64,000 nucleotides of DNA from Sabellastarte sp. h YS-2021 (taxonomy: Eukaryota > Annelida > Polychaeta > Sabellida > Sabellidae). Below are positions 10,356 through 59,684 of the stretch, one piece after another. Made by a program: the position numbers and the translations under genes. Location: contig OZ024927.1 in the NCBI GenBank assembly GCA_964017235.1, forward strand, positions 29,593,160-29,657,159. The letters run 5' to 3'. Under the pieces are notes generated by a model, which worked only from the letters and a program-made list of their open reading frames with translations, was not told the origin of the DNA and ran no database searches. The first letter of the stretch is position 1. Every line of letters begins with the position of its first letter.

Positions 10356-10671
10356 TATGAACACAAGAGTTGGTGTGGTGGTCCAGCCTTTTCATTGTTT
10401 GCATCATTTCCTTTATTTCACACCTCAGATGCTTAATTAGTTTCTATGTGGAGATCACCAATTCAAATGATCGTATTAGTCACCACTGTCTTTCAACTCA
10501 AGGATCAAACCATCAGGCCTGATGGAGCATGCTCCAGTAATGTGACTTCCTGTTTGCTCTTGGCTTTGTATATTTTTTCTCTGGCATTTTGGCAAGCTTT
10601 TTTATCTTTGAAGAAAAAAAGAAAGACTTCAGACCTGTGAACTAAGTGTGTATTCCCAACTCATTGATCTG

Positions 10672-36689: not shown

Positions 36690-36896
36690 CCCAGGGGGCG
36701 GTTGATGAGGGGGTGTGAGACCGGGGTGGGTGGGGGACTTATCGTAGTGCCTCAGTCCCAGGGGGTGGTGGCTGTACTTCCTTGGGTCGGTGATGTGGGG
36801 GTAGTGCTTAGCTGGCCTCTCCGAAATCCCCCCGCATGGCGAGAACTCCATCGGTCGAGATGGTTTCTTTGCAGGTGACAAGAACTTTGGAGTGTC
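36690..36896 (-). CDS. Protocadherin exon 2: cytoplasmic tail
   Basis: 69 codons, phase 0 at both ends (tail residues about 923-991). The acceptor is TACTTTCCAG followed by GAC (Asp) and the donor is CTGGG|GTGAGT. The segment begins DTPKFLSPAKKPSRP and is rich in Pro, His and Ser (for example HPGLTPPHQPPPG at its end), as expected for a disordered cytoplasmic linker with possible SH3 or WW ligands. No globular domain is visible. A long poly-A run on the coding strand lies about 70 bp beyond the donor, inside intron 2. The exon was recognised from the splice signals and from frame agreement with exons 1 and 3; an alternative donor a little downstream is possible but weaker. Confidence 0.85.
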
Positions 36897-38593
36897 CTGG
36901 AAAGTACAGAAATATCAACAAATGTTGGCAAGAAGCTTTGAGGGATGTAAACAAATGTAACACATAGTGAGCATCATTGTTAGCAATATGATTTTTGCCC
37001 AAGTCAGTTTTGCCTGAATTCTGAAAAAGTAGTCAATTTCGCCTAAGTCACATTCATCCAAATTCATAAAGTAACACTTTTGACCCATTTTTTTTATATA
37101 TAATAAAACAGATTCTGACAACTGACATTTCAATCTGCATTTTGATATTCATGTAAAACTATATTTTATGATAGCTGTAAGCACTATATTATGCAATTAT
37201 GTGTCTTTATATGCATATTTGAAAATGTGATCAAACACAATTATCACTAGAAGACCAACCAACCATTCGTCTGGGTGAAAAAACCTATTATAACATTTGG
37301 GTAAAATGTATTTTAGTGACGTTGACCCCCTGAAAAAAATTTTCAAATGAAAATGGGATGACCAAAGGTTTACTAAAAATATCAAATACTTTTGTCCTGG
37401 TATGCAATACTTTTTGTCCAAATACTTTTTGTCTGTACATATTGCAAGGTGAGAAGATAGCCTCATCAGAACATCTTTGCCTTAGTTTGTTTGTTAAAAT
37501 TTAATAGACGAAACCATTTTTGATGTCAACATCAGCAATTGTTTTATGTCAAAGTGTGCACTGTTTACTGCAAAACCTCACTTTAACAGGTTTTAACACT
37601 GCAAGGTTTTAAACAATCACAACAATGATATCATACTTACCAAATAGCTCAAATTTGGAAACAAAAATGTAGCACAGGTTTTAACCTTGAAAATATTTTA
37701 AGAAATAACAAACCTGTTTAAAATATGTTTTACTTAATTCTTTAGGTTAAACTCAAATAAGACTTCATAAAATGTCCTAAACATAGTTAAGGATACATGA
37801 TAAAAAACTTGTTTGGATGAATATCGAAATAGATGCTGAAAACACACACATGCATTGACAATCACACTCTAATTTGTTGCGTAAAAATTGAGCCAGGCAA
37901 TACCTAAATGTCAATAATTTTTTTCAGCCTAGAAAAATATATGTACTGCTACTTTCTACCTGTAACATGTCTTAAAATTATTGTCAATACACTTTGAGTG
38001 AATGACCTTTCACTCTTTGGTCCACATGTGTTACTCAGGACTGATTACTTGTTATTTACTGCACATGCACCCCAATTACTCTCTTTTAGGTCTTGTGGCA
38101 AGAGCCACAACTAGGCGGGAGTAATTCTGTCATGTGTCACTTAGTAAGTCAGTGGTTACTGATTGCAATTAAGTCAAAACTACAGGGACTAGGTGAATAT
38201 ATATAAATTAGTGTGCAACCAACAAGTGAGAGCTGAACAAGTTTGCATTTCTTCAGGGTTTTTTCTCTGACTTAATTTACAAAAACATTAATCATTCAAC
38301 AAGATCTGACACCAGGTAGAAAACTTTTTTTGGGATATAAGCACAGTTTAGGGGAAATAAAATCACAACAGATCCTAAGGACTAACTACACACAATGATG
38401 GATAAATAGTGTTTATAATGAAACATAGGACATATTTTGTGTAAACATCAAGTCTAAAGACATCTAATGTGTATCTCTACTGTTTGGTCAGCCATAAGGA
38501 TATTTATTTAAAGTGGACTTTGAAATAAAAACACAACCATATACTTCACAATAGACAGCAACACAAGTGCACTTAGAGACAACAGCAGAGACA

Positions 38594-40186
38594 ATGCAAC
38601 AAACACCCTGGCAACATCAGCTGAACAATTACAGTATCATTGGATGGCCTTATCTCTACAGTTACCATGGGAACAGCATCAGCAGTGACAATACAAGGGC
38701 ATTTTATAAGGCCTCCACATGCAAACTAGAGGACTCCTGCCAGAAAAACGCAGGTTCGAACCCAAGTCCACCGCAACATAAGCATGGTTTACCTGGCAAG
38801 TTAGTACCAACACTTTCATCACCAGATACTCTGTATGGACCTAATGCTGGAACCTTACAACAGGCATGTGGGAACCCTGCATACGGAGGGATGAAATACA
38901 GCCAATGTTCTCAATATAGGAACATGGCATATCCAGTAGTAAGCTCTGAAGCAAATCAAAGACTTGTTCTTCAACTCAAACCAGAATACCCAACACATAT
39001 TCAACCAGTCACTTCCAATACTACTCCAGTTACAGGTATGGACAACGATGGGGGAGTGAACACAACAGTTATTCATCCTGTAATGCCTGTTTTGCCAATA
39101 CAACAGCCCAACATCTCAGGAGTAAGCACAAATAATTTGAAACCCTCTTTAGTGTCATCTGATAGTTCTAAACAAAAGAAAGCTACTTGCTCAACTGGAC
39201 GTCCGAGAAAGCGTCCATTAGAAACTGGCAAGCCACCGTACAGTTATATTGCCCTTATCTGTATGGCTATGGCCAATGCAGTTGACAGGAAGTGTACCTT
39301 GAGAGAAATCATAGACTATATTGAGCTCCGCTTTCCATTCTACCGTAAAGATAAAAAGTGGCAAGGCTCCATCCGGCACAATCTGACTTTGAATGCATGC
39401 TTTGTGAAATGTGAGCGAAGGTCGGGGGACAAGGGCTGTCTGTGGACACTGGATAAAGACTACGAGGACATGTTTGACAATGGTAGTCTTCTACGACGGA
39501 AATATCGACTAAAGAAAGGAAGTGAGGACAAGTATAGGAGAAACATCAACAAGAATCCTGCTGCCAAGATGACAGAAAAAGATCATGTAAAGGTCATAGA
39601 ACTAAGCCCAAATGTCACAGTATGTACAGATACAACTTTAATGTCAGGGACCAAAGTTCTTAATAGGCCATGTGCTATTCAAGGAAATGGGAGTATTGAA
39701 ATGATGAAAAAGGGTTATGCAGTTGAAATTCCAGCTGCAATCGATTGTAACAACAATTCTCTGAATATGTGTCAACCAGATCAGATGCATGGCGAAAGGA
39801 AATGTAAGATGCACTTCACCATGCCAGAAAAAGGAACAGCAGGAAGTCATCAAAACCATGGCGATGCTACTCTTACCATTCCTGCCACATCTGGACCATA
39901 CAACAGCCAGAGAGCAGCCTTAGTCTCTCCAGTCTATTCAGAGCATCATTCACAAAATGTTTCATTTCCAAAAGCCTGCACACTAAAAGATGACATCGGT
40001 GCAACTCCCAGTATTTTTGGCAATGACTTTCGACAGATATCAAGGTACAACTATGGCACTGCTAAAGGGTTTACAGATAACAATGTAGCCAATGAAAAAG
40101 ACTGGAACATAAACATGTCAAGTGTGACTATGATTCCACAAATCAAAATGCAGATCGGTGCAGAAGCTATTCAAATAGGATTCTAA
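38594..40186 (+). CDS. Forkhead-box transcription factor, FoxE-like, intronless, nested in protocadherin intron 1
   Basis: 530 residues from the ATG at 38594; an in-frame GTG 27 bp upstream is not a likely eukaryotic start. The forkhead domain is about residues 213-308 (39230-39517): KPPYSYIAL at its start, [13 protein letters not shown] before helix 3, the recognition helix [13 protein letters not shown], then [16 protein letters not shown] and RRKYRLKK. A basic GRPRKRP (202-208) precedes the domain and could act as a nuclear signal or AT-hook-like contact. Flanking regions are Asn/Ser/Thr-rich with no other known domain. [15 protein letters not shown] and EDMFD-GS are closest to FoxE among the families I know, but the domain is divergent (NSIRHN has become GSIRHN; an IIDYIEL helix 2), so subfamily is uncertain. 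The whole domain is in one exon. It runs antisense to the host protocadherin. It should be a nuclear DNA-binding regulator. A TATA-like AT-rich stretch lies near 38500. Confidence 0.9.
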
Positions 40187-40258
40187 AACTGACTATGACT
40201 CCACCAATGAGAAAGGATAAGATTGGTGCAGAATCTATTCAAATGGGATTCTAAAACT
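40126..40258 (+). repeat. Tandem duplication of the forkhead gene's last codons across its stop
   Basis: Unit 1 (40126-40190) holds the last 19 codons, the TAA stop and four bases after it. Unit 2 (40191-40258) is a diverged copy placed directly after. It keeps an open frame, differs by a 3-base insertion and mostly third-position or conservative changes, and again ends GF-stop followed by AAACT. Unit 2 therefore lies in the 3' UTR of the present gene. Confidence 0.85.
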
Positions 40259-40689
40259 ATATGTTATTTACTGTTTCGTGCACTAGGAACTAAAGTATTG
40301 ATAATACAAGTACCTGCATATACTTAACTCTGACTTTATGTATTTGAAGATTGCATTGAGAAACAAACACATGTATTACATTGAAGTACTTCCACAAATA
40401 TGGTTTCTGTAATTTATCCATATTATAAAAGTATATTCTACATAAAAAACATATCCAAGTATGTTCCCTTATGTTTTCAAACTTATTGTATCTTATATAA
40501 ATGTTACAATGCAGTATTTAAATGTACTTTATGTGTCATACATACGTGTAGTAAATTCCTTAGACTGAAAAATGGATTTTCATTGAGATAACAAGACCAC
40601 TGCCGTGGTATGATCTCCCGCCGCACTACATCAAAAAGTAGGTGAACAACATATTTGACAAAACTCCTTTAAATTGAATAGTTTTGCTG

Positions 40690-42330
40690 TTAAGTGAAAG
40701 CTCTCCCAAAAGTAGGTGAATGAGTTATTTGAGAAAAATTGGCTATCTCCAATACTTTTAGCGATAATTCGCATTTACTCATTTTGAGTAGGTGAGTAAT
40801 TAGCTATGAGTGTGAAACTTCACCAAGCGAAAGCTCTCCCAAAAGTAGGTGAATGAGTTATTTGAGAAAAATTGGCTATCTGCAATACTTTTAGAGATAA
40901 TTCGCATTTACTCATTTTGAGTAGGTGAGTAATTAGCTATGGGTCTGAAACTTCACCATGTGAAAGCTCTTCCAAAAGTAGGTGAATGAGTTATTTCAGA
41001 AAAATTGGCTATCTGCAATACTTTTAGCGATAATTCGCATTTACTCATTTTCAGTAGGTGAGTAATTAGCTATGGGTCTGAAACTTCACCATGTGAAAGC
41101 TCTCCCAAAAGTAGATGAATGAGTTATTTGAGAAAAATTGGCTAAGTACAATACTTTTAAGAGATAATTCGCATTTACTCATTTTGAGTAGGTGAGTAAT
41201 TATCTACGGGTCTGAAACTTCACCATGTGAAAGCTCTCCCAAAAGTAGGTGAATGAGTTATTTGAGAAAAATTGGCTATCTGCAATACTTTTAGCGATAA
41301 TTCGCATTTACTCATTTTGAGTACGTGAGTAATTAGCTATGGGTGTGAAACTTCACCAAGTGAAAGTTCTCCCAAAAGTAGGTGAATGAGTTATTTGGGA
41401 AAAATTGGCCATCTGCAATACTTTTAGAGATAATTCGCATTTACTCATTTTCAGTAGGTGAATAATTAGCTATGGGTCTGAAACTTCACCATGTGAAAGC
41501 TCTTCCAAAAGTAGGTGAACGAGTTATTTGAGAAAAATTGGCTATCTGCAATACTTTTAGCGATAATTCGCATTTACTCATTTTGAGTAGGTGAGTAATT
41601 ATCTATGGGTCTGAAACTTCACCATGTGAAAGCTCTCCCAAAAGTAGATGAAGGAGTTATTTGAGAAAAATTGGCTATCTGCAATACTTTTACAGATAAT
41701 TCGCATTTACGCATTTTGAGTGGGTGAGTAATTAGCTATGGGTCTGAAACTTCATCAAGTGAAAGCTCTTCCAAAAGTAGGTGAATGAGTTATTTGGGAA
41801 AAATTGGCCATCTGCAATACTTTTAGAGATAATTCGCATTTACTCATTTTCAGTAGGTGAGTAATTAGCTATGGGTGTGAAACTTCACCATGTGAAAGCT
41901 CTTCCAAAAGTAGGTGAATGAGTTATTTGAGAAAAATTGGCTATCTGCAATACTTTTAGCGATAATTCGCATTTACTCATTTTGAGTAGGTGAGTAATTA
42001 GTTATGGGTCTGAAACTTCACCAAGTGAAAGCTCTCCCAAAAGTAGGTGAATGAGTTATTTGAGAAAAATTGGCTATCTGCAATACTTTTAGCGATAATT
42101 CGCATTTACTCATTTTCAGTAGGTGAGTAATTAGCTATGGGTCTGAAACTTCACCAAGTGAAAGCTCTCCCAAAAGTAGGTGAATGAGTTCTTTGAGAAA
42201 AATTGGCTATCTGCAATACGTTTAGAGATAATTCGCATTTACTCATTTTCAGTAGGTGAGTAATTAGCTACGAGTCTGAAACTTCACCATGTGAAAGCTC
42301 TCCCAAAAGTAGATGAATGACTTAAAAAGT
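40690..42330 (+). repeat. 133-bp satellite array, about 12 copies
   Basis: Unit starts (AGTAGGTGAATGAG) at 40711, 40844, 40977 and onward every ~133 bp. Each unit has AGTTATTTGAGAAAAATTGG, CAATACTTTTAGCGATAATT, CGCATTTACTCATTTTGAGT, AGGTGAGTAATTAGCTATGG and CTGAAACTTCACCATGTGAA. TACTCA-TTT-TGAGTA in each unit can form a small hairpin. Copies are highly similar. Confidence 0.95.
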
Positions 42331-43320
42331 AGATGAACAACTTATTTGAGAGAAATTGTGTAGCTGCAATACTTTTGAAGATATAAGGCATTTACTCATT
42401 ATGGTTATCATTAAAAATTGACAAAGTAGCTAATACGGTTTGCGAGATATTTGTGATTTTTCACATTTTCACCAAAAGTAGCAATAAAGTAGCCATTACT
42501 CACTTGTACATTGAGCAACAGTTGTGAAACTTAAATATGTTACAGTTCACAAAAAAGTAGATGAACAACTTATTGGAGAGAAATTGTGTAGCTGCAATAC
42601 TTTTGAAGATATAAGGCATTTACTCATTATGGTTATCATTAAAAATTGACAAAGTAGCTATTACTCACTTAGCTATGGAGATACACTTCCAAACTAGTGA
42701 CCATGTTGTAGCTGTGGAAATAGTAGCTGAACAACATATTGGAACAAAATTGTGTAGCTGCAATACTTTTGAAGATATAAGCCATTTACTCATTATGGTT
42801 ATCATCAAAGTAGCTATTACTCAGTTAGCTATGGAGTTACAGCTGTGAAAATTCACAATACAGTATATCCAAAAGATAGGTGAACAACATATTCGACAAA
42901 AATCTTCTATATTCAATAGTTTTTGAGTTATAAGTGACTTGCTCAACGGTCAAATGTTAAACTTAGTTTAGCTATTACTCAGTTAGCTATGGTGCTACAC
43001 CTTGGACACCTCACCATGATATAGTACATGAAGGAGTTGTTGAACAACATATTTCAGGCCAATATTGTAAGTAACAGTTGCTCATTTAAACTCATTTTGC
43101 TCATTGTTAATAACAGAAAATAGCTATTACTCACTTAGCTATGAAGATAGAACCCTAAAAATGGTACCATCTTGTAGGCATGGAGAAAGTAGCTGAACAA
43201 CGTATTTTACAGAAACACTCTAAATGCAGTCGTTTTGGAGTTATGAGCACTTTACTCAAAGTAGCCACCATTGCTATTACTCACTTAGCTATGGTCCTAG
43301 GTGTGAAATAACAGCATCAA
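42331..43320 (+). repeat. Longer, diverged satellite units related to the 133-bp array
   Basis: About five degenerate units of roughly 180-200 bp with GTAGCTGAACAACATATT, TGTAGCTGCAATACTTTTGA and AGTAGCTATTACTCACTTAG. The shared GTAGNTGAAC, CAATACTTTT and TAGCTATGG elements link them to the 133-bp unit. Confidence 0.85.
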
Positions 43321-43781
43321 ATGAAAGGACATACGCAATAAGGTCATAAAAAACATTGAAAAGGCCAAGGAGAAACAACCAGTGTGATGTACAGCCCTTT
43401 ATAAAAGCGTGACACTCAATAACACACGAACACGCACGGAATGCGTTTTATAATCTCCCGCCCGGCCGGCGGGAGATAAAAAGTTTAGGAATATTGTTTT
43501 TAACCTTTCATAAATGTGAGTGCCATACAGGTGTCATAGACTTGTATAGAAATAACAACTTGTATAGAAATAACAACAATGCTTTTTGAAAATTTCACAC
43601 AATTCTTAAAATCCCAAGATGAACAGGTCTTTATGTGATCCAAAGTATTTTAAATGAGTGCATAATAGTAAAATTAATTTAAAGCTTTCTGTAAAAGAAG
43701 AACTTTATTTTGTCTTCATTATGTACCCTTAGATTACTCTTTATAAGTGAAATAGAGCAACAATGAACTCAGAGGACTCAG

Positions 43782-44014
43782 TTTTTGTTTATTTGGGGTT
43801 TTACGTCGCTTTTAACACTGTACAGGTCATATCACGACGGGTAGTTGGAAGGGCAGAGGAAACCAGTACATATAGTTCACTAGGGTTCTGTACTGTAAAC
43901 TGCCGACCAACGGCAAGCAACTACCAGCTTTCCCACTTACGGCCATGACGGGGATCGAACCCCGGCCGCAGAGGTGGGAGGCGAGAGTGTTACCACTCTG
44001 CCACCGTGGCCCCC
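43782..44014 (-). mobile_element. tRNA-derived SINE, copy 4
   Basis: Minus-oriented member in protocadherin intron 1 with intact A and B boxes (GATCGAACCCC on the plus strand is the B-box complement). A perfect 14-bp duplication (CTCAGAGGACTCAG) flanks it at 43768-43781 and 44015-44028. Confidence 0.93.
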
Positions 44015-46122
44015 CTCAGAGGACTCAGAGCCTTTCAGTAGTTAACTTAGGTCATATAAGGCCATGCTTTCATTGCATCCCACTTGTCATCCCAGGCTGG
44101 ATCTGAACCCAGCACAACATAAATGAGGGCCAAGTGATTAAACCCCGATGTGTTAATCATTGGGTCACAGAGACCAGTGTACAAATAAGAAACAAAATCC
44201 TGTCTTCACAAGCAAGTATAAAAATTCTACAACTTGGCTTCATAAAAATCTTCACCATACTTGTTCCCCATGTTATTTCAATTTAATTTACTTACAGAAT
44301 CAAGTAGATATGGGAAGATAAGGGAGACCATAATGCACTAATTTAAGTCCTAAGCTTACAAGTTCGAACTGCAAAGTCTAGCTTAAAGTCTAGCTTTTAT
44401 TCTGTTCTACACATTGTTTAGCACTTAATCTTTGTCTCTAAAACTCTAAGGCGCAACACCAGATATCAATTCAAAATCATTTTTCCAAAGGCACAGGCAA
44501 GTCGGTACCATGGAGATGCTGGATAGTTTATAAAACCTACTTAAGAGATGCTACTGTTAAAAGTTGCATAATATACCTTAATTAGCTATTTTAGATGATT
44601 ATAAATACTTTTCATCATATTATTAAGGGCAAAAATAATCTGTAAAAGATGCTGTTTTACACTGTTTTGCATAAACATGCACAAATTATCATGACCAATC
44701 ATATTCAGTATGTGCAAATATCATAGGTTTTCATTTAGTTCCTTCCACAACTCCTTTATATTTAATACAAAACTACTTTATCCATAATTTCAAAATATAT
44801 GGTCTTCCAAAATGTCCAGAAGATATATTGTATTGTATATAACACATATCTATGAGCCAAGTGATCTTAAACAGACCTGTAAATTGATAATTATAACCAA
44901 TCATAGAGAATTATGTGCCACAGAAAATTAAAGCTGTTAATCCCAGACAGCTTTTGTCTAGAACCAAGCACCTGTGAGCAAGAAATTACCTTCCAATTTT
45001 CCAGTGCATTGACAAACTACAAAGGAAAGCTACTCCTTAAGCTTTTCTTTCGGTACATACTTAGTAGCCTGGTGTTAGGCTCTATGTATAAAGAAAAACA
45101 TCCTAAACAAAGTTGAGCAGTTGTATCCTGTCTGACATCCAGCATCCCTCAAGCATTGCCATTTTTGGAAGTCTACCCGCATGGAGGTGACAACCTGTGA
45201 TCGGGTAAAAAACCTGATAACCACTCAGCTATTGTGGTCCTTTAGCATGGGAACTACTAAATTCATAATTCCCCAATACAGGGACATAACATTTTAGTCC
45301 ACAAAAAAAGCAATTACCTGACCATATCTGTTGGGCTTGAAATGTATATTGAAAGAAAATGAAATCTATGTTCAAGACACAACCTTTGAGACTTAAAATT
45401 CTGATGAAACATCAGGTACTTGCATGTTGCACTTGTATATATTCCACTAACAAGGGCCTCAATGCATGCATAGTTGACACTTAGCTATCAATTCTGTGGT
45501 TATAGGTTCAAATCTAGCTAATACATTATGGTTGATGTACTAAAAGCTTGTCCCGAAATGACTTTAGCTAACAGGGATGTAAAACTCAAACTTTGACCTT
45601 TTCAAAAAGAGTATGTAGCAATCCTACGAGAGCCAAAAAAAGACTAACTAATCACTGGCAGCAAATTAGGAACCAGCTTAATACTGTTGTTTGATGCCAG
45701 TCTAGTTATTATAGGCCTCAACCTAGTGATATAGATTATTTCTGTCTGGGAATTTTAGAGAATTCCCCATGTAAAACTGGCTAATCCTGCATTACTGAGA
45801 CTTGAAATGACCAGATTAAGATCCATTGATAAATACTGAATACAGTGAGACCTAGGGGGTTGGTCATTATAAGTAAGTATACTTTGCTTAATCAGTCATA
45901 CTGTTATGTCTTTTCACATTAAACAATATAATGAAGCTTGTGGGGTTAATTTGTCCAAACTAGATAATTATTATTCGCTGAATGCTTTCCTTACAAAACT
46001 ACTTCTGATAACATTTTTGTGGTAGGATAACACACCGTGGTAGCTCAAAAAGTAGTCTATAAAATAAATAGGACTATTTGTAACAGAAAATAATCACATA
46101 TTGTGAAGTTCTTAACCAAATT

Positions 46123-46203
46123 AGTGGGTGTTTCCATGAGACTAATGATTAAGGCCTGATCACTAATAGCTGATGCATTACATTACTGTTTCCAAACACC
46201 AAA
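46123..46203. mobile_element. Small inverted-repeat element with GGTGTTT termini
   Basis: GGTGTTTCCATGAGACTAAT at the left and, inverted, GGTGTTTGGAAACAGTAATG at the right; about 80 bp. Weak, could be chance. Confidence 0.35.
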
Positions 46204-46539
46204 TATTAAACACAGATCCTGTATGCTTATAAAAAAATCTTAATATTTCCTTTGACTTTTTAGTTAAAACAGGATTCATTCTAAACTGTAACTTGCTAAT
46301 TTTCCAACTGGTTTTGATACAAAACATGCTAGACAAAGTGCAAGGTCCTTCCTTAGTGCCTTATGATTCTCTGAAAATATTTAACTTGGAAAGAAGTTCT
46401 GCTATTATAAAATGCACTCATTCATTGTCTCAAAAAAAAAGTAAAGGCTTGTAAGCAAGTCTATAAACATACACACATTGACTGAAATATACAAATACTT
46501 TTATATTTGTTTTTTTTGGCTTAGGGTGATAAAAGAAGA

Positions 46540-46577
46540 TCAGTGTTGGTAGTCCATGATCTACATTGACCAACACT
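46540..46577. repeat. Isolated hairpin
   Basis: 10-bp perfect stem CAGTGTTGGT / ACCAACACTG with an 18-base loop. No neighbouring gene explains it. Confidence 0.55.
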
Positions 46578-47579
46578 GGGTATAAAGAAACTTCTGTGAA
46601 ACAGATAGAATTAATGTGAGCAGTTAGTGGTCGGTGTTGTGAAAATACCGGCTCAGAGATGTTTTAACACTTTTCCATTAAATACAACATATAAAAGGAT
46701 TCTTTTAGCTCATTTTCTACTTTAAAACTCATTTGATGCATATATTCTGTCTTTTTGCAATAAACTGTACCAGAAAAACCTTGATCCTAACAAACATGAT
46801 CTGAGGTGTATATAACCCTGTCATACATTGGGAGCGAGATATCGCATGTCCTCTCAATGACACTGAACATAAAGTAGAAGGTCTAATCAGGAGGACCAGT
46901 TATGGAACATTTAATTCACCCGTCCTGCTGGGTCCTTGCCCCCAAACAAATGAACCCCTACTGGTTGAAAGCCATTTAATGCATAAATTGAAGGCATAAA
47001 ACCCTATAATATACATATTTGTAATGTCTTAATCAGAAAGCAAGAAGGATTGCTAAGTTAAAACTTCACAATTAAGATACACAAGAGCCTTTCCAAGGTT
47101 CAGGCTTACTTGGCATTTTAAAATTACACATATTTTCTTGGTGTTTTTAATTACATAGGATGATTACTAAGTAACTTATCATTGTAAATATAAACACATA
47201 CAATCCATAGAAATAAGGCAGTTAGTGAGTATTGTTTTGGTTTTTATTGAACACCAAAACCATATAGATTCTTTGTGGCAAAGGAAGAAACAACATTCTT
47301 TTTCAAGACTGTACAGCTACGGCCTCTTTCTTGGACTGTATATTTGGTTGTCAAACTTTAAACATATAACATCAAATTAGCAGTGATTTAAGTTCCTTAT
47401 ATCACTTTGTTGAATTTCAATGATCATGGGTTTAGTTTTAATTTAATAAAATAAATAAAAATCACCTGATACACAGCAATTCTTATCTGCATGAAGCTTC
47501 CTCTGCACCAGTATCTAAAGTCCAACTTAAACTGTCTCAGCAAATTGAATGCCCAGAATTTACAGGATTTGGTTTCACT

Positions 47580-48025
47580 TACCGTATTTATTCATATAAA
47601 CGCCCCGGGGGGCGATGCTTTTTTCAAAAGGGGGGGGGGGACTATTATCTATAAAAAAAATCAACTCTTGAGTCCAGTGGCAATGGACACTTACAGCCCT
47701 GATCTTGCTTGCCAGCATGTATTATGGTGAGACAGCTTAAAATATTGGAAACAAACCTTAAATTATAAAGTTTATCTCATATTTTTGCAGATTTCATTGC
47801 ATTTGTGATCATAATTGCTTTGTTTTGTTGTGACTTTCTTTATTTCTCGTAAGTGGTATTTGATTGGGGAAGTACTAAAACGTATCTTTTTTCTGAATCC
47901 TGGAATCGCAAAGGTGCTGGCCGTTGAGAGGGATGTAAAACCCCGAAATATGAATTTTGCAAAGGTAGACAGGAGGGGGAGGGGGCGACTAATAGGGAGG
48001 GGGTGTTAATACGGATAAATACGGT
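47580..48025. mobile_element. MITE with TACCGTATTTATTC termini, copy 2
   Basis: Left end TACCGTATTTATTCATATAA then CGCCCC; right end GGGGGTGTTAATACGGATAA then ATACGGT, inverted. The termini match the element at 18727. G-rich subterminal blocks lie at 47609-47640 and 47972-48005. Non-coding interior. Confidence 0.72.
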
Positions 48026-50969
48026 CATTACGGCAAAATCTATGTATACCTTGTGTACAACTTTTTGGCTTTCGTTTAGTTGATTACTATGACCTTGATC
48101 TTATTTTTATCTTTTATTGTTTCCATATAATAATAACAATAATAGAACAATTTGTAAAACACAAAATTGACAAGAATCCTCTAATGCACTGAAATGCAAA
48201 AAGTAATGCAGCCTCTTCAGATAAGTCAGAAGAGCTTGAAAAACAAACTGGTTTTGTTTTTTTTTAAACCAAATGAAATCCGGTATTTTAAATGTTTGCT
48301 ACTGATATGTCGAAACTTAAACAGTAATCATGCATTAGCCATAATTAAAAAAAGAAAGGTCTGCGAGATATTCTAAACTGCATCATAACTGAATATAAAA
48401 TAATAAAAATGTGCCATATCGCCCAAACTTTATATGATTTCTTATTGTTTTTAAGAATAATGAGCTATGAGAAAGCCTAAACTGATAATGTTTTCAATAA
48501 ACTGTTCTTTAATTATTCGAAACAGATTTTCACTGCAATGTAACAAAAAGCAGAAAATCCTTTTACCTTTCACCTCATAGTATGTTTTTGGCTGGCTCAT
48601 CTGGAAACAATTTTAGATTTTGACAAAAATGGTAAAATTTGAGATAGTAATTTGGGTGTAATATTTTATAATTGAGTTCCATTGTGATCTGACAGTGCAA
48701 TCTTTCACAGCCTTATTGACGGTACTTTGCTGAATGGTTTTGTCTTTTGAAAATCCATAAATTTAATAATGCTATATATCAAAACTTCATGTCAAAAGAC
48801 AATGACTCCATTCAGAATATAAACAACTATAATAAACACAAGGTGTTTCTCCTAAGTACTCGTAATTATGTTGTAAAACAATTTGTGCCCTAAGTTCTGA
48901 ATATTACTGAGGTGTCAACTGAATTCTTCTTGCTAATAAATCAAGGTATTTACAGCCATTTAGTCCAATATTTAAGACTTGTACAAATGTAGCTATTGAT
49001 TTGACCTTGTTCACTTTTGAGAATTCTTGAAAAACATCTTCAATTGAAGGTATAGGCCAGTTTTCAGAACTACCCACATATCCACAAATATTTTATTTTT
49101 GGTATTTTCACAAAACATAACTTGGGTATTTTCCTGAAGTGCCAGAAGTCTGGGTATATGTGGCTACTGTGCAGTGACTTGTTGGTGCCGATATTATTGG
49201 TTCCATATAGTGGATATTAGCTTTGCTAAAGGCTTAAAGCTTTTTGAAATTAGGGAAAACTTTCAGTTTACACAATAAAGTTTCAGTTTATATATTACAC
49301 TTTTATATATACTTGGTTTTACAAGTTACGACAGCATACTTCTAAGACTGATGAATTTATATCTCCTAACATGTATCAGTTTTTTTTTGAACACCAAATA
49401 TTTGTGGGTATGTTTCAGATACAGTACAAATTTGAGCCTTATGCAAGTCTCACCAGATATTAAAGGCCAATCATTTAATGGACTAATTTTAAATATTGAT
49501 TTTCTTATTTCCTAGCCAGTTTTGTTGACGATTCTTTTCTGTGTGTCCTTCTTTTAGTTGGATGGAGGTAAAACTGGGATCAACTTCTGTGAAATAGTTA
49601 TGAGCATAAAACTCATCAACGGACACAAACAAACTTCATTGTCAGCCAGTGGCTCAGCCTGACACTGGGCTAAGTGACTAAGTCTGAGATTTGTGCAGTC
49701 AGCCCCAGGTACAAGAAAATACAGTATGTACATGTACTTAAAACTATTTAAAAGGTTTCAGAATTTGTATAAGCCATCAGTGGTTGGTGGTGTGGAAACA
49801 GCCATTAATTTGCAACTGGATATTTATTTAAAATAAGGAAAATCTTCTTCAAATTGTAATCAAGGGCCCCTGTATCAAACTTTTGCTAAAGGTTTTATTT
49901 CAACAAGGCCATATATTTCAGAAAATCTATCTTTGTAATACTTTCAATCCATCCAATATTTTGAACTAAACTTGTCACTGACAGATTTAAACTGAAAAAT
50001 CAACAATGTAAATTCTAAGGTAGGCAGAAGATTCATTTTAAATCTTGGCCTTGTTTAAGTATGCATGATATATGTGCAAAACAAAGACAGTACAATAATG
50101 GTGTCTCACTACCCTCAAATTCTCTGCAATGATGAATACCTTTGTGACAAAAGGTTCAAAGCACGCATCTGAACAGTTTTGAAAACAGCCTGTTTTCCAG
50201 ATTTGTGACCTGAGGCTAAAATTTCTATAGTTGGTCGTGCTGCTTGTCCATTGAATCATCAGTGACAAGAGTGAAGCAGAAAGTAAGGTTCATTATCAAG
50301 TTCAACAGGGTCGGCAGATTTACACTTGTACGTGAATTACAACAGCCAACGGCTGTTATACACATGCAGAAAATAGCCTGGTCACATATATCTGCAGCTA
50401 GACTGAAAATATTATGGAGCTATATTTATGTTGAAAGTGTTTCAGAATAGCCGTCATATGACAGTTATGAACTTGTGAGGTCCTTTATGCGTCACACTGA
50501 AATTTACATTAAAGCTTCAATAATGTGTAACTCGTGTAATTAGGGGGCTTATCAAACAATGTGATGTTATTTTTAAAGTTTACTCACACTTTCTGTTGCA
50601 TTAAGCTATAATATAGCTCTGTACAGGTAAAGAAACTAATCTGTTTGATCTAGTCTCATTGTACATTTATAAAACTTAATCCTTGTTGTAGCAGAATCTA
50701 AACCACGTAAGATGAAAAATCATTGTTCCAAAATCATGTAGCAGTTTAATAAACAAAAGTCATTAACTGTATACCCCCTGGTTGTTTTCTGTGATGCCTG
50801 GTCCCTTTCTGTCTATGAAAAGTGATATTTGGTTGACTGTTATGGTTATGTTCTGCCTTAGAGTTCCTTTGAGATTAAGCACTACAAAAGTCCAATAAGA
50901 ACTAGACCTACGCATTGGAGAACCGATGCAAATTTGTATTCACCAGAAAGACAACTCACCAAAGCCAGT

Positions 50970-51570
50970 GAACCACTGTTTGACATTGAAGGAGGGGCCA
51001 ATGTCAAATCTGAAATCAGATTCCGAGCACAAGATAACCTGGAAGTTGGTTTCACATTGCAAACCTCTAGGATCAATAATAAACAAGTTATAAGCAGTTT
51101 TAAGGGGCTCAAGGTCAAATCTAACCATATCAGAAGATTCCCAGCCCATGATTTCCTATAAGCTGGTTTCACATTGCAAGTCTCTAAGACCAATATTTAG
51201 CGAGTTATAAGCACTTTTAAGTTTTGCTATCCTTATTTGACCTTGAAGGAGGTGTCCAAAGTCAAATCTGACCACATCATTCCCAGCCCATGATTTCCTA
51301 TAAGTTGGTTTACCATCCCAAACCTCTAGGACCAATGACAACCGAGTTATAAGCACTTTTAACTTTGGCTATCCTCGTTTGACCTTGAAGGAGGGGTCCA
51401 AGGTCAAATCTGACAACATCAGAAGATTTGCAGCACATGATTTCCTATAGGTTGGTTTCACATTACAAACCTCCAGAACCAATAATAAGGGAGATATAGG
51501 CACTCTTAAAGTCTGCTATGTGGGTTACTTTGGCACTCCGTGGATGACCTTGAATTCAGTGATTCAAGGT
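50970..51570 (+). repeat. Tandem array, ~145-bp unit with GGTCAAATCTGAC
   Basis: Four or so copies with CAAGGTCAAATCTGACCACA, GCCCATGATTTCCTATAAG, GTTGGTTTCACATTACAAAC, CGAGTTATAAGCACTTTTAA and TTTGACCTTGAAGGAGG. Markers fall near 51003, 51114, 51259 and 51404. Several short overlapping frames in both strands are products of the repetition. Confidence 0.88.
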
Positions 51571-52366
51571 CAAATGTCTGCAAGGTTGTAGAGGACATGT
51601 ATATCTGTTATACATATCATCTATAAAGAGATTCAACTTTCTACCTATGAGAAACGGCCAGTAGAAAAATGTAGATAATTTTCAAAGAAATGCCCGCAGC
51701 GGCCATCTTGTTTTTCAGAATGAGGCTAATTTCAGTCCCAGAGAAGCTTACCCCGAATGAAGATATCCTGCAAATTTGGTGAACCTAGGCGGTGTAGTTT
51801 TCCTCTGAGAGCGTTAACGCCGAAAATCTCTCTACGTGCGGTGGCGGCGGCGTAGCGAACGCAAAACCAAAGTATACACCAGATGCCTCTGGTAGATACA
51901 ATAAACTTTTCCTCTAATAATATACTCTGTTGAAAGACCAGTATTGAGATTTGAACTGATTCTGTAAGTTTTTGAATCCAGCACTCTAGCCATAAAGCAG
52001 CTGAAGGCACACAAACTAATGACAGATCTTGTTCAAAAGGTGAAGGAACCTTGTGAAAAACTCATTGTTTAAAACACCGTAAATTACATAAAAAAGGAAT
52101 TAAAATTTGTAATCCAGAAAATGGCTGACATTTTGCCAATAAATAGATAAAAATTGGATTAACTGTGAGCATTTTTGTTGTCTTGTGAGATTGTTTATTT
52201 CAGTTCTTCTAAAATTTCTTCCCTCAAATTTAATAACTTTTGCTTGATTTTAAGGAATGGGAAATTTAATAAATGTGTCCAACTGGTTTGATTGTTTCTC
52301 TTCTTAGAAGTATGTGATATAATGGTAGCCTTGCATAAGGCTCACATTTGTGTCAAAAGCCATTTA

Positions 52367-52591
52367 TTTATTTATTTGGGGTTTTACGTCACTTTCAACA
52401 CTGTACAGGTCATATCGCAATGGGTAGTTGGAAGGGCAGAGGAAACCAGTACATACAGTTCGTCAGGGTTCTGTACTGTAAACTGCCGACCAACAGCAAG
52501 CAACTACCAGCTTTCCCACATGAGGCCGTGCCCGAACCCCGGCCTCAGAGGTGGGAGGCGAGAGTGTTACCACTCTCCCACCGTGGCCCCG
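52367..52591 (-). mobile_element. tRNA-derived SINE, copy 5
   Basis: Minus-oriented member in protocadherin intron 1. A perfect 13-bp duplication (CAAAAGCCATTTA) is present at 52354-52366 and 52592-52604. The B-box region has a small deletion (CCCGAACCCC). Confidence 0.92.
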
Positions 52592-53383
52592 CAAAAGCCA
52601 TTTAAAACATGTACACAAAGGTTTGGTGTTCCTAAGGCACTCATACATGTTTGGAGATTTGAATTCAATGGACAGTCTCTGTCTCAGCAATATACTTAGC
52701 AAGAATATGTAAGTGTACATCGCATAAAACACTGCAACTTCGTCAAGTAGGCTGAAAGTTTGTAGGAATAACAAAGATACTCAAGCCTTGAGCAAAGTTA
52801 ATTTAATAGAAAAGAAATAAGAACATTTTTATCATGGACCAAACATTGCCAGTCAATATAATGGATTCACACTTCCCCAGACAAATGGGTAAAATCCTCA
52901 ACAAATTTCTGGTTGAAAAGAAGACACAAAACAAATCAAGTCAGTCCGGCAGGCTGGAAAATCCCCACATTTTCTTCAGTTCTAAGTTTTGACATCACAA
53001 TTGTAAAAGATATTACGTTAATTCTAACATGTTGGGATATATTATTAACACAGGGCAAACACAGACACTGTGGTGGTAACAGTCCATTTAAGTACCAGCA
53101 AAAGACCAGGAACAGGACTCATACTGTACATGAATCCTTAGAAAAAAGTTTAAAACAAATAAATTTATGTGTAACGAATGGGGGATCATTTGGGGCCTTT
53201 TCAGGTAAGTGTAGATGTTAGAATTTCAATGAAGTTCAACTTTTAAATTTAATTCTGGTTAACCCAGTAAACAAATGGGTTGAGAACAAGATGGTCACTC
53301 AATTAAAGTAGAATGTTTGTCTTCCAAGATGAAACTTGTGTGAACCTCTCTAGGCACACTTTATGGTAATTTCCTTATGCCCT

Positions 53384-54530
53384 TGTTCCACCAAAGGATT
53401 AAGCCCCGATCCTGTCTGGGACCCTTAATCGTGGACAGTCGGTGAAAAAAAAAACAAAAATGGGTGGGAAAACTGGATCGGTTTCAAAGTCTGGGATTAA
53501 GTACAGATCGTCCTCAGGACGCCTCAGGCGGCCCCAGACAGTCCCTAACTGGTCTTGGACTAAGAACCGACCAAGCCATTTTTCTGGTCAGTTTGAACCA
53601 CGATCCTGTCGTAGACAAACCGACTGGGTCCCAGGACGCCTCAGGCCTCCTGGGACTAAGCCCCGACTAACCCACGATTAAGTCCCGACCCCACAAGGTG
53701 TCCTGAGGCGTCCCCAGACCGAGATAGCCGATTCTTGTTTTGCAATGGGACTAAGGGTCGCAGGAGGCCTGGGACTAAGGTACTAAGGGTCGGGGACTAA
53801 GGGTCGCAGGCGGCCTGGGACAACATACGACTGTGTAAATTTGGTCTGAGGAGGCCTGGGACTGGACATTTTGTTTATGGCGGGAAAAATAATTGGTTGG
53901 GGTCGGGAGAAATATCAAACATGTTTGATAAAAAAAACAAAAATGGGTGGGAAAACTGGATCGGTTTCAAAGTCTGGGATTAAGTACAGATCGTCCTCAG
54001 GACGCCTCAGGCGGCCCCAGACAGTCCCTAACTGGTCTTGGACTAAGAACCGACCAAGCCATTTTTCTGGTCAGTTTGAACCACGATCCTGTCGTAGACA
54101 AACCGACTGGGTCCCAGGACGCCTCAGGCCTCCTGGGACTAAGCCCCGACTAACCCACGATTAAGTCCCGACCCCACAAGGTGTCCTGAGGCGTCCCCAG
54201 ACCGAGATAGCCGATTCTTGTTTTGCAATGGGACTAAGGGTCGCAGGAGGCCTGGGACTAAGGTACTAAGGGTCGGGGACTAAGGGTCGCAGGCGGCCTG
54301 GGACAACATACGACTGTGTAAATTTGGTCTGAGGAGGCCTGGGACTGGACATTTTGTTTATGGCGGGAAAAATAATTGGTTGGGGTCGGGAGAAATATCA
54401 AACATGTTTGATTTTTCTCACGGCCCCAACCGACCACAACCGACCCTTACAGGACGCCTGGGACTAAGCAAATTTTTTAAACCGACCCTCAAAAACCCTT
54501 AATCGGGAGCCTTAGTTGTGTGGTGGAACA
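53384..54530. mobile_element. TIR element TGTTCCACCA with internal tandem duplication
   Basis: Ends TGTTCCACCA...TGGTGGAACA, followed inward by TTAAGCC/CTTAATCG-like modules in both arms. The GC-rich interior carries many GGGACTAAG and GGTCGG modules. Without the 483-bp duplication the element would be 664 bp. No certain target duplication. Confidence 0.75.
53447..54412 (+). repeat. Two tandem 483-bp units, identical by eye
   Basis: Units 53447-53929 and 53930-54412. Every stretch compared is identical, including two frames of 68 and ~80 codons that repeat exactly. Each unit ends in the 16-bp perfect palindrome ATCAAACATGTTTGAT (53914-53929, 54397-54412). Confidence 0.95.
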
Positions 54531-57127
54531 CCCACATTACATGTGTATGTTTGGGTGTACTTTTATAATCAAATTTGACAGAGACATATATGATTCTGAA
54601 TGGTCTTTAACCCTTCAACTTTAGCTTCAAACTTAAAATTTTCCCACCAAGATTTTAGCCTGATCAATAAAGCATTGCAATAAAATGTACATAATTCATT
54701 GTATTATTACTCACAGTGATTAATGTAACTTTGTACCTTTACCTCAAGTTTCAAATTAATTAACCAAATTTATGTTGAAATGCTGGTAAACACTTTGTAA
54801 TAATGATAAAGACATAAACCCATCTGGGTCATAAATAAGAACACAAAGGGCGATCACAGAGTTATGATAACATAAATACATCAAATGCTCACTGAAACAT
54901 TCAATGACATGATAGAAATTATTCAACACATCATTAAGAACTCCAAAATATAACAGGTATACTATAAACTAATTTTACGATCTGTTGCACAACTTTTGTT
55001 TGCAGAAGTATTAAAACATTTGGTGTTATTTATGTGATATACGTGTCATGGCCATTATTAATTCTTTTTAGATTTTAAACCAACGATCGTAAATAAGATT
55101 TTTGGGGAAATCAAATTTTATTTGAATTGACATCTGTATTTGACAAAAATTTAATGTGTTTGGTATTTTAAGTTTTATTATGTAAACATATGGAATGTCA
55201 CTTTGAAGAAATTGTATTGATTAATTTATGCATAGTTTTCTATATTCATTTTAGTACTGCTTACTGAAGTTTAATGGTAAAAATTGGAAGATAAAAACTT
55301 TTTGGAAAAAGCATCAAAAAGACATTCTTCCTCATCTGTTGACTTTTACAGTGTTACAACTAAAATGTAAGGGAATAATAACATATTCCAGCTAACGGTT
55401 AATAACTTAATGACTAGTCTTCACCAAAAAATGTTGGAAACCAAAAACACAAAAAAAACACTGTCACTGTAAAAAATAAGTAGTGCTCAACAATTGTAAA
55501 TTTCAGTACATTCATGAAGTAATTGGATGCAATTTGAACGTTTCATTTTTTAATGTTAACTATATTAAGTTCATTTGATAATCCAGTTAATCAAACAAAT
55601 TGTATAATAAATGGTAACATCTGACTTAACACCTATATGTAATTGTCATTCCATGTTACTAAAATAAAATTTCTGACAATGCAACTTGAAGTGTTGTGTC
55701 AAAAATTTCTCACTGTTTAGATTCCAAATTTTTTTGGGTGTTTTTGTCATATTGTCAGAGTACTCTGTGTTGATACTATCTGCATATTCCCTTGGCAGAA
55801 TTACTGTCCAATATTATTTGGATGATCCAACGATCTTGCCGCTCCGAGACTTTATCAAAATAAAGAAATAAGGCTAAAACTGTTAGAACATTTTCCATTT
55901 TCCACAGAAAAGGTCAGGGGTGAAATGAGTGTGTTCACAGTGAGTGAATCACATACATCTTGATGAGTAACATTCTGCAATACATTTTCTTCATTTTTGC
56001 CTTTAAGTAAATTTTATTATTGCTGCAAAAATGGTGAATCGTTAACAGGTTACCATTTATTATCCTGAAAAAATATTTCAATCTTGTAAAAATAACCTGA
56101 TCTGTATGTGAGCAGTTACTTAAGTAAAAGTCTGTAAATATTATTTTGCAGAGTAAATAAAAACTAAAATACCTTGGATGGCCAAACTAAATGGGTGGTC
56201 GAGTTTTAGAAAACTTATATGAATGTACATCAGTCACCTTGTTCTATTCAGCAAGCAAAGGTATGAACTTTTATTGCTTATCTATTTTCCAATTATGGGG
56301 GTAAATATCGATGATTATTACCCCTGACTTACTTAGGCAAATACTCCTATAAAGTCTAACATCAAACCGATCCAATTTGACAGACTCATATATAAGCCCT
56401 CTTTTAATTGAAGAGAATTATGAAAAAAAATGAAGAATCATTTGAGAAATAAAATAGTCCTGGTTGTTTAACTGCAGTCTGTGGTGTATGTAGATGATAG
56501 TGATTGATATAATACAACAAGCAATCAGTGCCCATGAACGGGCTCTGTGTCAGCTGACTGTGAGTTTTGAGTTACAGAGTAGAAGTGAAAGAAGTAACGA
56601 GCTACATGTATGTAATTTCACTATGTTATAGCTGTTAAAAATTATTTGAAAAAATTAATATAAAAAAATTAAGACAGATCCAGGTCTAATACTCACATAA
56701 GGTAATCTACTAATGGCCTGGTACATATATGCAAGATGTGAGAAAAATCCCTGCAATAGTGAATGAGAAAATTGTGATAAAGTGTTGACATTTTCACACT
56801 TTGGGTGGGGGTACCTGACTTGTAATGTCTCTGGGGAAAAGACGCATGAACACATCTGAATGATATGTAAGGCATCTTTTAAAAAAAACTGCATGTCTCT
56901 CAGGGTCTTGTAGTTTAGGAGAAGTTATTCACGCGGACGCCCACGCCGCAGAATGACGACATAAAAACGGGAGAATATTTTAGAATAAAAATTTATATCA
57001 CATTGTATGGTGTTGAAAATTATACCAGTCCTGTGTTCTTTAAGTAGCCTTGGACAACATGACCAAATTTACAAAAAGCTGGGGATGGGTGTTTATGACG
57101 ATGCAAATTAGGCAGGTATTAAAAAAA

Positions 57128-57400
57128 CCCTGACTTTAGGAACTCCACTTTTAGTATATACCAACAGGAAGTAAAGTGCAGTTGAAGTGAACAAATCTTT
57201 CTGTAATAAAATGTTAAATAACTGCAAAAATCAGGAAAGCTATGTTGAATATGAATATGTTGTAATCACATTTGACTTATTATTGAGTTATAATTGAGTT
57301 AATTTACCTCGGAACAACATATTAGCAACTTTTGGGTGATAATATGAGATCGGGGGTGTTTAAAACATTGGTGATACAGTGTATGACATGGGCAGACAAA
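57128..57400 (+). repeat. Unnamed dispersed repeat, copy 4
   Basis: Shares AATAAAATGTTAAATAACTG, TGTTGAATATGAATATG, AATTGAGTTAATTTACC, ACATATTAGCAACTTTTGGG and GATAATATGAGATCGGGGGT with the other copies. Confidence 0.6.
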
Positions 57401-59684
57401 ATATGGTATAATAACAGTTGTGACTGTTTATTATTGGATCATATTAAGTCAAGGGAAGTAAAATTCTTCTTTTTATTGGTAAATACTTTGTTACACAAGA
57501 AGTTAAGCCAGCCACTTTTGGGTAAAAAGGGGGTTATAATTATCTGCCTAAAATAACTGTGTTTGTCTGCTCTACAAGTACTGATATGCCATTCCTCCCC
57601 CCACAGTTTGGGGATGATACGATTGATTAATAATTCACAACAGAAGGACTGACAGCTAGCCCCAGTTACAATTACTGAGAAAGTGATTGCTTAGCACTGA
57701 AACAGGGGATCAAACAACTAAAGTGAGAACGTATAACAAAAATTTAATTTAATAGAACATTGTGAAAATTATGCATATTCTGCCAACTGATTTCATGTCA
57801 AAATGGATGAGTGATGAACAATCAATGCATTGTTATTTCTTAAGTCGATAAAGATAGCTTCATCAAATTTGGAGACTCCTCTGCCCATTAAATGATTGAT
57901 AATGCCTCTCTACATTTTTAATAAAACCATTAACGTGTCAGATTTTACCAGCACTAATAACTGTATCAGATTACATCCATAGTTTGAAATGCACTGGTTA
58001 GCTTGAATAAATAACAATTTATTTTGGGAAACCCACATAAAACCATCTTATTTGATATATGTAAAAAAAACTTGAAAATGTTTGGTTCACATTTTCTTAC
58101 TTATCATTAACACTTCATCTTTCAATTTATCATCATTACATTTTATACATAAAGGAAATCTTTCATCATATCTTTACAAAGATGATGCTTTTATACTTGT
58201 TATAACAACTTGTTTGTCTGTTCAAACTGCTAATTTAGTCATCGCAAAACATTAAACTGGCCCGACATATAAAGTGATGTTATTTTTAAATATGTCAAGA
58301 TATACTATATAATTATCACATGGAAGGTCTGGACTGGAGTATGTCAAATATCACAACCTGTAATCTGAACTCTGAGACATTTTCTTCATAATTTCATTCG
58401 GTGTTTTTACAAAAGCATATTGATTGTAATTATTGTTACACCTTTCAAAAACAAAGCACTGTGAAATTATAACTTGTTAAGTCATTTAATATGACAGGAA
58501 AATTGACTGGCACAAAATCGTGATAATATAATGCAGTAACTTCTATCATGATCTCATTCACCATTTATTGTGTTTAATTATAGTTGTATCATTGAAAAAC
58601 AGACCACATATACTGACAAGTCAGGTGAACAGGTAAAAATGGAAACTGTTATAATATCTGATTATGAAATTATAAGAAATGTTTATTATAGAAAAAAACT
58701 GAAATTAAAAAGAACACTCTTAGTCTCAACACAATATCCTGAGATGTTTCAGATCTGAAATACCACTTGATTTCAAATAAAATCTGAGGCCTCATTAACG
58801 TAGCCTCTTTCCTAACTTTAAATAATTCTCCTTTCAAAGAACTATAACTGAATCGAAAAAAAAATCTTTATTTTTAAGAATTATTCCTTTTTTTATAAAA
58901 TGCATAATATTAATTAGGTAATTCTGTATTTTCAGTGAAAGCGCTTGGCGTATGAAATGATAATGAATCTTTTCAGTGTTATGGATGGAAATATATGCAG
59001 AAACTTACAATATCAGAGGTCATTTAGTATGACTGTTTATAGATCAAAATAAGCAAAACTAAAAATAGTCAGTGCAAGAACTCACACAATTCCTCATAAA
59101 CATATATTTTGCCCTGAAAAAGCTATTATTACGATCTGTCTGCTCTGTGACTTGATGTACATTGTAATATTCTCAATTACATTTACAAATATAATCTTTT
59201 TACATTTCTTACAATGACAGTTTTCACTTTTTGAAGTAGTTAAATTACAAGGGTTTGGATAGTGGAGGGTCTCTTAATGAAGAGGAGCTCAAGTTGAGTC
59301 TTTTTTTTTTGTTCATGAAGATAAACATAAACAATAACAATTGCATGTATTCATTTGTGAGCAGTGTTAACTTGGAAATGTTATTTAATCACTCCCCATA
59401 GTTCACTGAAATGGGATCACATGTGATCAAATTTAAGATGCAAATCCTTTACCTCATCTATTAAAAGCTATCTATAATAATGTCAGAGCAATCTCGGGCT
59501 TGTATTCACAACATTTTTTTTCAGTTCAAGAAGTAGATAGCCTTGTTCATATAGTATTGACAATTGAAAAATAAATCATCAATACAAAACAACAGTTAAA
59601 ACTCTCCAGTAACACTCCACCACAAATCACAACTGTAACATCTCACAAAATCTCATATAAAACCCTGTGTGTCCCTCTTCTTAC

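Follow-up and report, generated by a model that had tools for sequence, protein, structure and literature searches.

What does a forkhead protein read when the asparagine that contacts the bases of its site has given way to glycine? The question is raised by a single-exon gene in the window, by which is meant the whole stretch of 64,000 nucleotides analysed here (C1:29593160-29657159). In the recognition helix (H3) of FOX proteins, Asn (i), Arg (i+3) and His (i+4) are described as the major-groove contacts, the Asn being kept in 47 of the 49 human FOX proteins (PMC9701222). In FOX complexes other than that of FOXN1, this residue forms a bidentate contact with an invariant adenine; FOXN1 uses a different rotamer of it for its different site, and the base contacts of the helix are reported as strictly conserved even among proteins of differing specificity (PMC7062188). 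The explanation that we favour, by a modest preponderance, is that the gene in the window is functional and has long been conserved, as one of six genes for divergent forkhead transcription factors of FoxE-like type, each encoded in a single exon, which have lost two DNA-reading residues, this Asn and a Tyr of helix 2 (H2).

The gene and its host intron

A preliminary description reported a complete, intronless forkhead frame of 530 codons, nested antisense in a 22.8-kb protocadherin intron, with protein flanks that share no domain with standard Fox families. All of this was confirmed by the features of the locus, which are the following:

59685..62450, minus strand: first coding exon of the host protocadherin (start Met assumed), a frame of 939 aa in which PF00028 matches seven stretches
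36897..59684, minus strand: host intron of 22,788 bp, containing the Fox gene
36690..36896, minus strand: next exon of the host protocadherin, 69 codons long, with both ends in phase 0 and with acceptor and donor
38198..38206, plus strand: TATA-like stretch 396 bp 5′ of the ATG, a consensus match and putative promoter element
38594..40186, plus strand: single-exon forkhead gene of 530 aa and stop, an ORF from ATG to TAA
39230..39475, plus strand: Forkhead domain, residues 213-294, a Pfam match (104 bits, E 4.7e-30)
39311..39313, plus strand: helix-2 position, with Ile replacing Tyr
39359..39394, plus strand: recognition helix (WQGSIRHNL), with the Gly codon GGC at 39365-39367
40126..40258 (40126-40190 and 40191-40258), plus strand: 3′ end of the coding frame, present twice in tandem

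The frame is preceded by an in-frame stop (TAG at 38552-38554). Its protein scores 104 bits against a curated Forkhead cut-off of 27 bits, which places it among FOX proteins, and the top solved-structure matches of its domain were FOXC2 (PDB, E 3.1e-32) and an entry named ‘GENESIS’, which we take to be FOXD3; both have Asn at the place of the Gly. Forkhead was the sole domain found by Pfam at E 0.1, the flanks matching no family. A scan for bacterial-type promoters, which is not meaningful for such DNA, returned sites not above those of shuffles. The duplicated 3′ unit, of ~65 bp, includes the stop codon and has its second copy in the 3′ flank; ~500 bp past the stop codon of the Fox frame starts a 133-bp minisatellite (40694-42324; 12.3 copies, 93% matches).

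On the host side, a phase-0 donor, GTAAGA, follows the first exon at 59684, and the 69-codon exon stands between CTTTCCAG and the donor GTGAGT. From splice sites and phase together, the two exons are probably joined. The length given for the intron is the distance between these two recognised coding exons. Host exon 2 and the Fox frame are 1,698 bp apart. A nested gene as a rule lacks introns and runs antisense to its host, and such nesting is described as common (PMC8467205); the position of this gene is the ordinary case of a compact gene within a large intron. Elsewhere in the protocadherin intron there are two tandem copies of a 483-bp unit (53443-54412, 99%), and a LINE-like frame of the window (8232-10391, minus strand) matches reverse transcriptase and zf-RVT.

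The same genome (1.79 Gb, 647 contigs) includes a mitochondrial contig, C647, with genes on both strands as judged by eye. Its COX1 uses AGR as sense codons (the vertebrate code would give 13 stops) and, from inspection of conserved Met sites by eye, ATA as Met; taken with the set of Fox genes, this codon usage hints at a protostome, probably of the spiralian branch. An apparent COX3 (L054, ~985-1795) is split over frames, perhaps by sequencing error.

Family, duplication and selection

Searched in six frames with the whole protein, the genome yielded five paralogs of the window gene, scoring 136-160 bits, with a gap from 136 down to 105 bits for the next homolog. Two lie on contig C2 and three on C11, each in one frame of 456-606 aa from its ATG. 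A tree of 56 domains joined the six genes in one clade (support 100/99), which persisted at 100/100 after removal of the 16 recognition-helix columns, so that the shared Gly alone does not make the clade. Within it the window gene was sister to the other five, at 100/95 with all columns and 35/44 without the helix. Beyond this genome, none of 114 pattern matches in viral contigs was confirmed as a relative, and 15 pattern matches in prokaryote genomes included one 16-residue match (Paenibacillus), taken as chance. The earlier picture was right in that the gene is real, divergent and fast-evolving, but incomplete, since it is one of six copies and the H2 Tyr is also gone; it is better understood as part of an expanded, FoxE-like family in which every member of the clade has both changes.

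A retroposed origin had also been proposed, and a recent retroposed Fox copy inserted into the intron would account for a gene that is intronless and nested, with dispersed copies. Against this, absence of introns is the rule in clade-I Fox genes (PMC9539403), and a single frame covers the whole domain of the window gene, with no intron in it. By a hand count, the domain lies within one open frame in 39 of the 63 forkhead matches in the genome, and in 35 of the 39 this frame is at least 365 aa long; the remaining 24 are partial pieces, some surely from intron-split genes. The paralogs have intronless frames too, and the younger ones share DNA upstream: L026 matches L029 at 82% over 2.4 kb before the ATG, a 79-bp block (76%) that contains TATAAATAGCAGA is shared by L026 and L027, and an upstream TATA block is common to four paralogs. 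Such DNA is unexpected in an mRNA copy and points to DNA duplication. Outside the domain the window gene has no DNA in common with its paralogs, and it is too diverged for this test, which applies to the younger paralogs only; saturated dS marks it as old. On the evidence of frames, upstream DNA and divergence, retroposition was not supported, and we regard it as highly improbable. Neither intronlessness nor antisense nesting is out of the ordinary.

Substitution rates were estimated by NG86. For the window gene compared with its paralogs, domain dN was 0.22-0.29 at saturated dS (four of five pairs undefined, the fifth 4.2), and flank dN was 1.0-1.4, on alignments of ~20% identity that are themselves unsure. 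In the young pairs, domain dN/dS was ~0.08 (L026/L029) and ~0.10 (L027/L028), with 0.42-0.46 in the flanks. The domain, including its Gly, is being kept by purifying selection. The fast flanks and the duplicated 3′ end could suggest a decaying pseudogene, but 530 open codons would arise by chance with a probability of ~4e-15 (for this base composition, sites treated as independent), domain dN is low where dS is saturated, and the Gly has been held through three codons, GGC, GGG and GGA all being used in the clade. On these grounds decay was rejected, and it is extremely improbable.

Outside the domain, a C-terminal tail, IP.I...IQ.GF, looks similar across the family by eye. An end-anchored test of it, picked after the tail had been seen, covered four of the five paralogs, L027, with a tail shorter by two residues, being set aside; among 20,000 random draws, 0, 0, 1 and 0 scored as high. 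Tests free of this bias gave weaker results. The score of a paralog C-flank profile against the window gene was equalled in 61 of 2,000 shuffles. Pairwise C-flank scores were equalled by 138-369 of 1,000 shuffles, and N-flank similarity did not rise above shuffles (157-552 of 1,000 pairwise; 852 of 2,000 for the profile). A shared tail is suggestive only.

The nearest forkhead class

The trees included human references, FOXC2 and FOXD3 among them, and FoxE was represented by two references, both human. With all columns, three trees grouped the clade with these two at 92/90, 99/97 and 95/94; the grouping was absent from the free tree built without the 16 helix columns, in which, when forced, it fitted no worse (p-AU 0.58). 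We infer with moderate confidence that FoxE is the nearest class, with support that rests on the helix columns, and the family is called FoxE-like in this sense. Besides the all-column grouping, FOXE1 and FOXE3 resemble the clade in the helix motifs KKWQ and HNLTLN; however, FOXE keeps the H3 Asn and the H2 Tyr, both of which the clade has lost.

Other placements were disfavoured when forced: with 11 rows of the genome called FoxQ2-like by resemblance, in a tree with no FoxQ2 reference (p-AU 0.02), with FoxD (p-AU 0.03) and with FoxI (p-AU 0.002). These constraint groups, and that for FoxH, were named after the first tree had been viewed.

Spiralian FoxQ2 expansions are like the clade in being multi-copy and intronless, and eight copies in this genome, which we take to be FoxQ2-like, have also lost the Asn, here to Ile; unlike the clade, they keep the H2 Tyr. 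These eight intronless copies (L032, L036-L042) are found on C3, C6 and C19, with helices of the types WRISVRHHL and WKISIRHQL, and three C6 copies have identical domains. A further departure from the canonical contacts is seen in L017 and L018, where Phe replaces the H3 His (WQNTVRFNLS). L022, which was not in the tree, appears to us to resemble FoxI. The FoxQ1 and FoxI classes are both given as absent from molluscs (PMC12530298), so that this genome, in which L024 groups with FOXQ1, may come from some other kind of animal. The same source describes Fox-OG13/NA and Fox-OG16/NA (‘FoxY’ and ‘FoxZ’), which, compared by description only, are likewise extra Fox groups of uncertain orthology. Among the open-access texts searched, none was found that names FoxY, FoxZ and bivalve together.

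DNA-contact residues and what they may read

The window helix aligns to the FOX recognition helix with no gap inside it, so Gly occupies the place of the base-contacting Asn, as had first been proposed, and this is a position whose change alters specificity in FoxH1 (PMC9701222). The peptide QGSIRHNL was found in none of the open-access texts searched. Across 46 domains of at least 60 aa, the position holds Asn in 31, Ile in 8, Gly in 6 and Ser in 1 (L043), and the six with Gly are exactly the clade members. With Gly, Arg and His, the window gene has lost one of the three H3 contacts; FoxH1 also departs at the Asn and is still a FOX protein, so membership of the superfamily stands. Over the whole clade the Arg is left in five of six, L030 having Lys, and the His in six of six. 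The five paralogs also lack the Trp and Ser of the helix (LHGA).

The main new point is that the H2 Tyr is lost in all six genes on top of the Gly. This position could be read in 44 domains, 36 of which have Tyr and eight another residue: Ile in the window gene, L, L, V, Q and Q in its paralogs, and two exceptions among the 38 domains outside the clade. The exceptions, L005 (Cys), which groups with FOXD3 in the tree, and L024 (Asn), which groups with FOXQ1, both keep the H3 Asn. Loss of both residues is thereby seen in 6/6 of the clade and in 0/38 of the other domains read at both positions. Each loss needs at most one event, on a single stem branch, so the pairing carries no statistical weight.

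The closest functional parallel is FoxH1, in which Asn to Asp together with H2 Tyr to Leu/Ile is reported to permit the reading of GG and GT with TT sites retained, the H2 Tyr otherwise restraining the Arg (PMC9701222). FoxH1 and the clade are altered at the same two positions and retain Arg (i+3) and His (i+4), save for the Lys of L030, and it may be asked whether the clade is a divergent FoxH group that inherited both changes rather than acquiring them convergently. The window gene does have a FoxH-type H2 residue (Ile) along with the loss of the H3 Asn; forcing the clade together with FOXH1, represented by one long-branched reference, lowered lnL by 6.86 at a p-AU of 0.06, above 0.05; and no clear FoxH was recognised elsewhere among the loci of the genome, L043 joining FOXH1 through long branches only. 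The free trees, however, put the clade with FOXE and FOXH1 elsewhere, all six genes have Gly and not the H3 Asp, and a simple pattern found no PPNK-like Smad motif in the clade. Descent from FoxH is, on this evidence, distinctly unlikely.

For a functional FoxE-like family, the reading preferred here, the loss of the Asn side chain would remove the adenine-reading contact, and the loss of the Tyr hydroxyl would leave the Arg free to bind G directly; the family would thereby be expected to bind core sites of the GG/GT type (FoxH1-like), or relaxed ones, and not the canonical site only. By analogy with FoxH1, the DNA specificity of the clade is likely altered, and its members presumably act as transcription factors. 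Tentatively, one may go further and picture a forkhead subfamily of at least six copies that would read the core by Arg and His alone, a second and independent route, through Gly and not Asp, to FoxH1-like (GG/GT) or wholly new specificity.

The Asp of FoxH1 does contact DNA, whereas Gly has no side chain to do so, and binding by the clade may therefore simply be weaker. The Gly would in that case mainly weaken DNA binding, and the proteins, with relaxed specificity, would act through partners or compete with other Fox proteins at shared sites. The missing Trp and Ser of the five paralogs, the Lys in place of the H3 Arg in L030 and the fast-evolving flanks fit such weakening; the strong conservation of the domain, of the Arg in five genes and of the His in all suggests instead that DNA reading still matters. 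We hold this account to be rather doubtful, though of appreciable weight.

A conserved, multi-copy family that has Gly fixed at the Asn position and no H2 Tyr left offers a natural test of the part that each residue plays in FOX specificity. With eight Ile copies in the same genome, departures from the canonical contacts may accompany the expansion of Fox genes.
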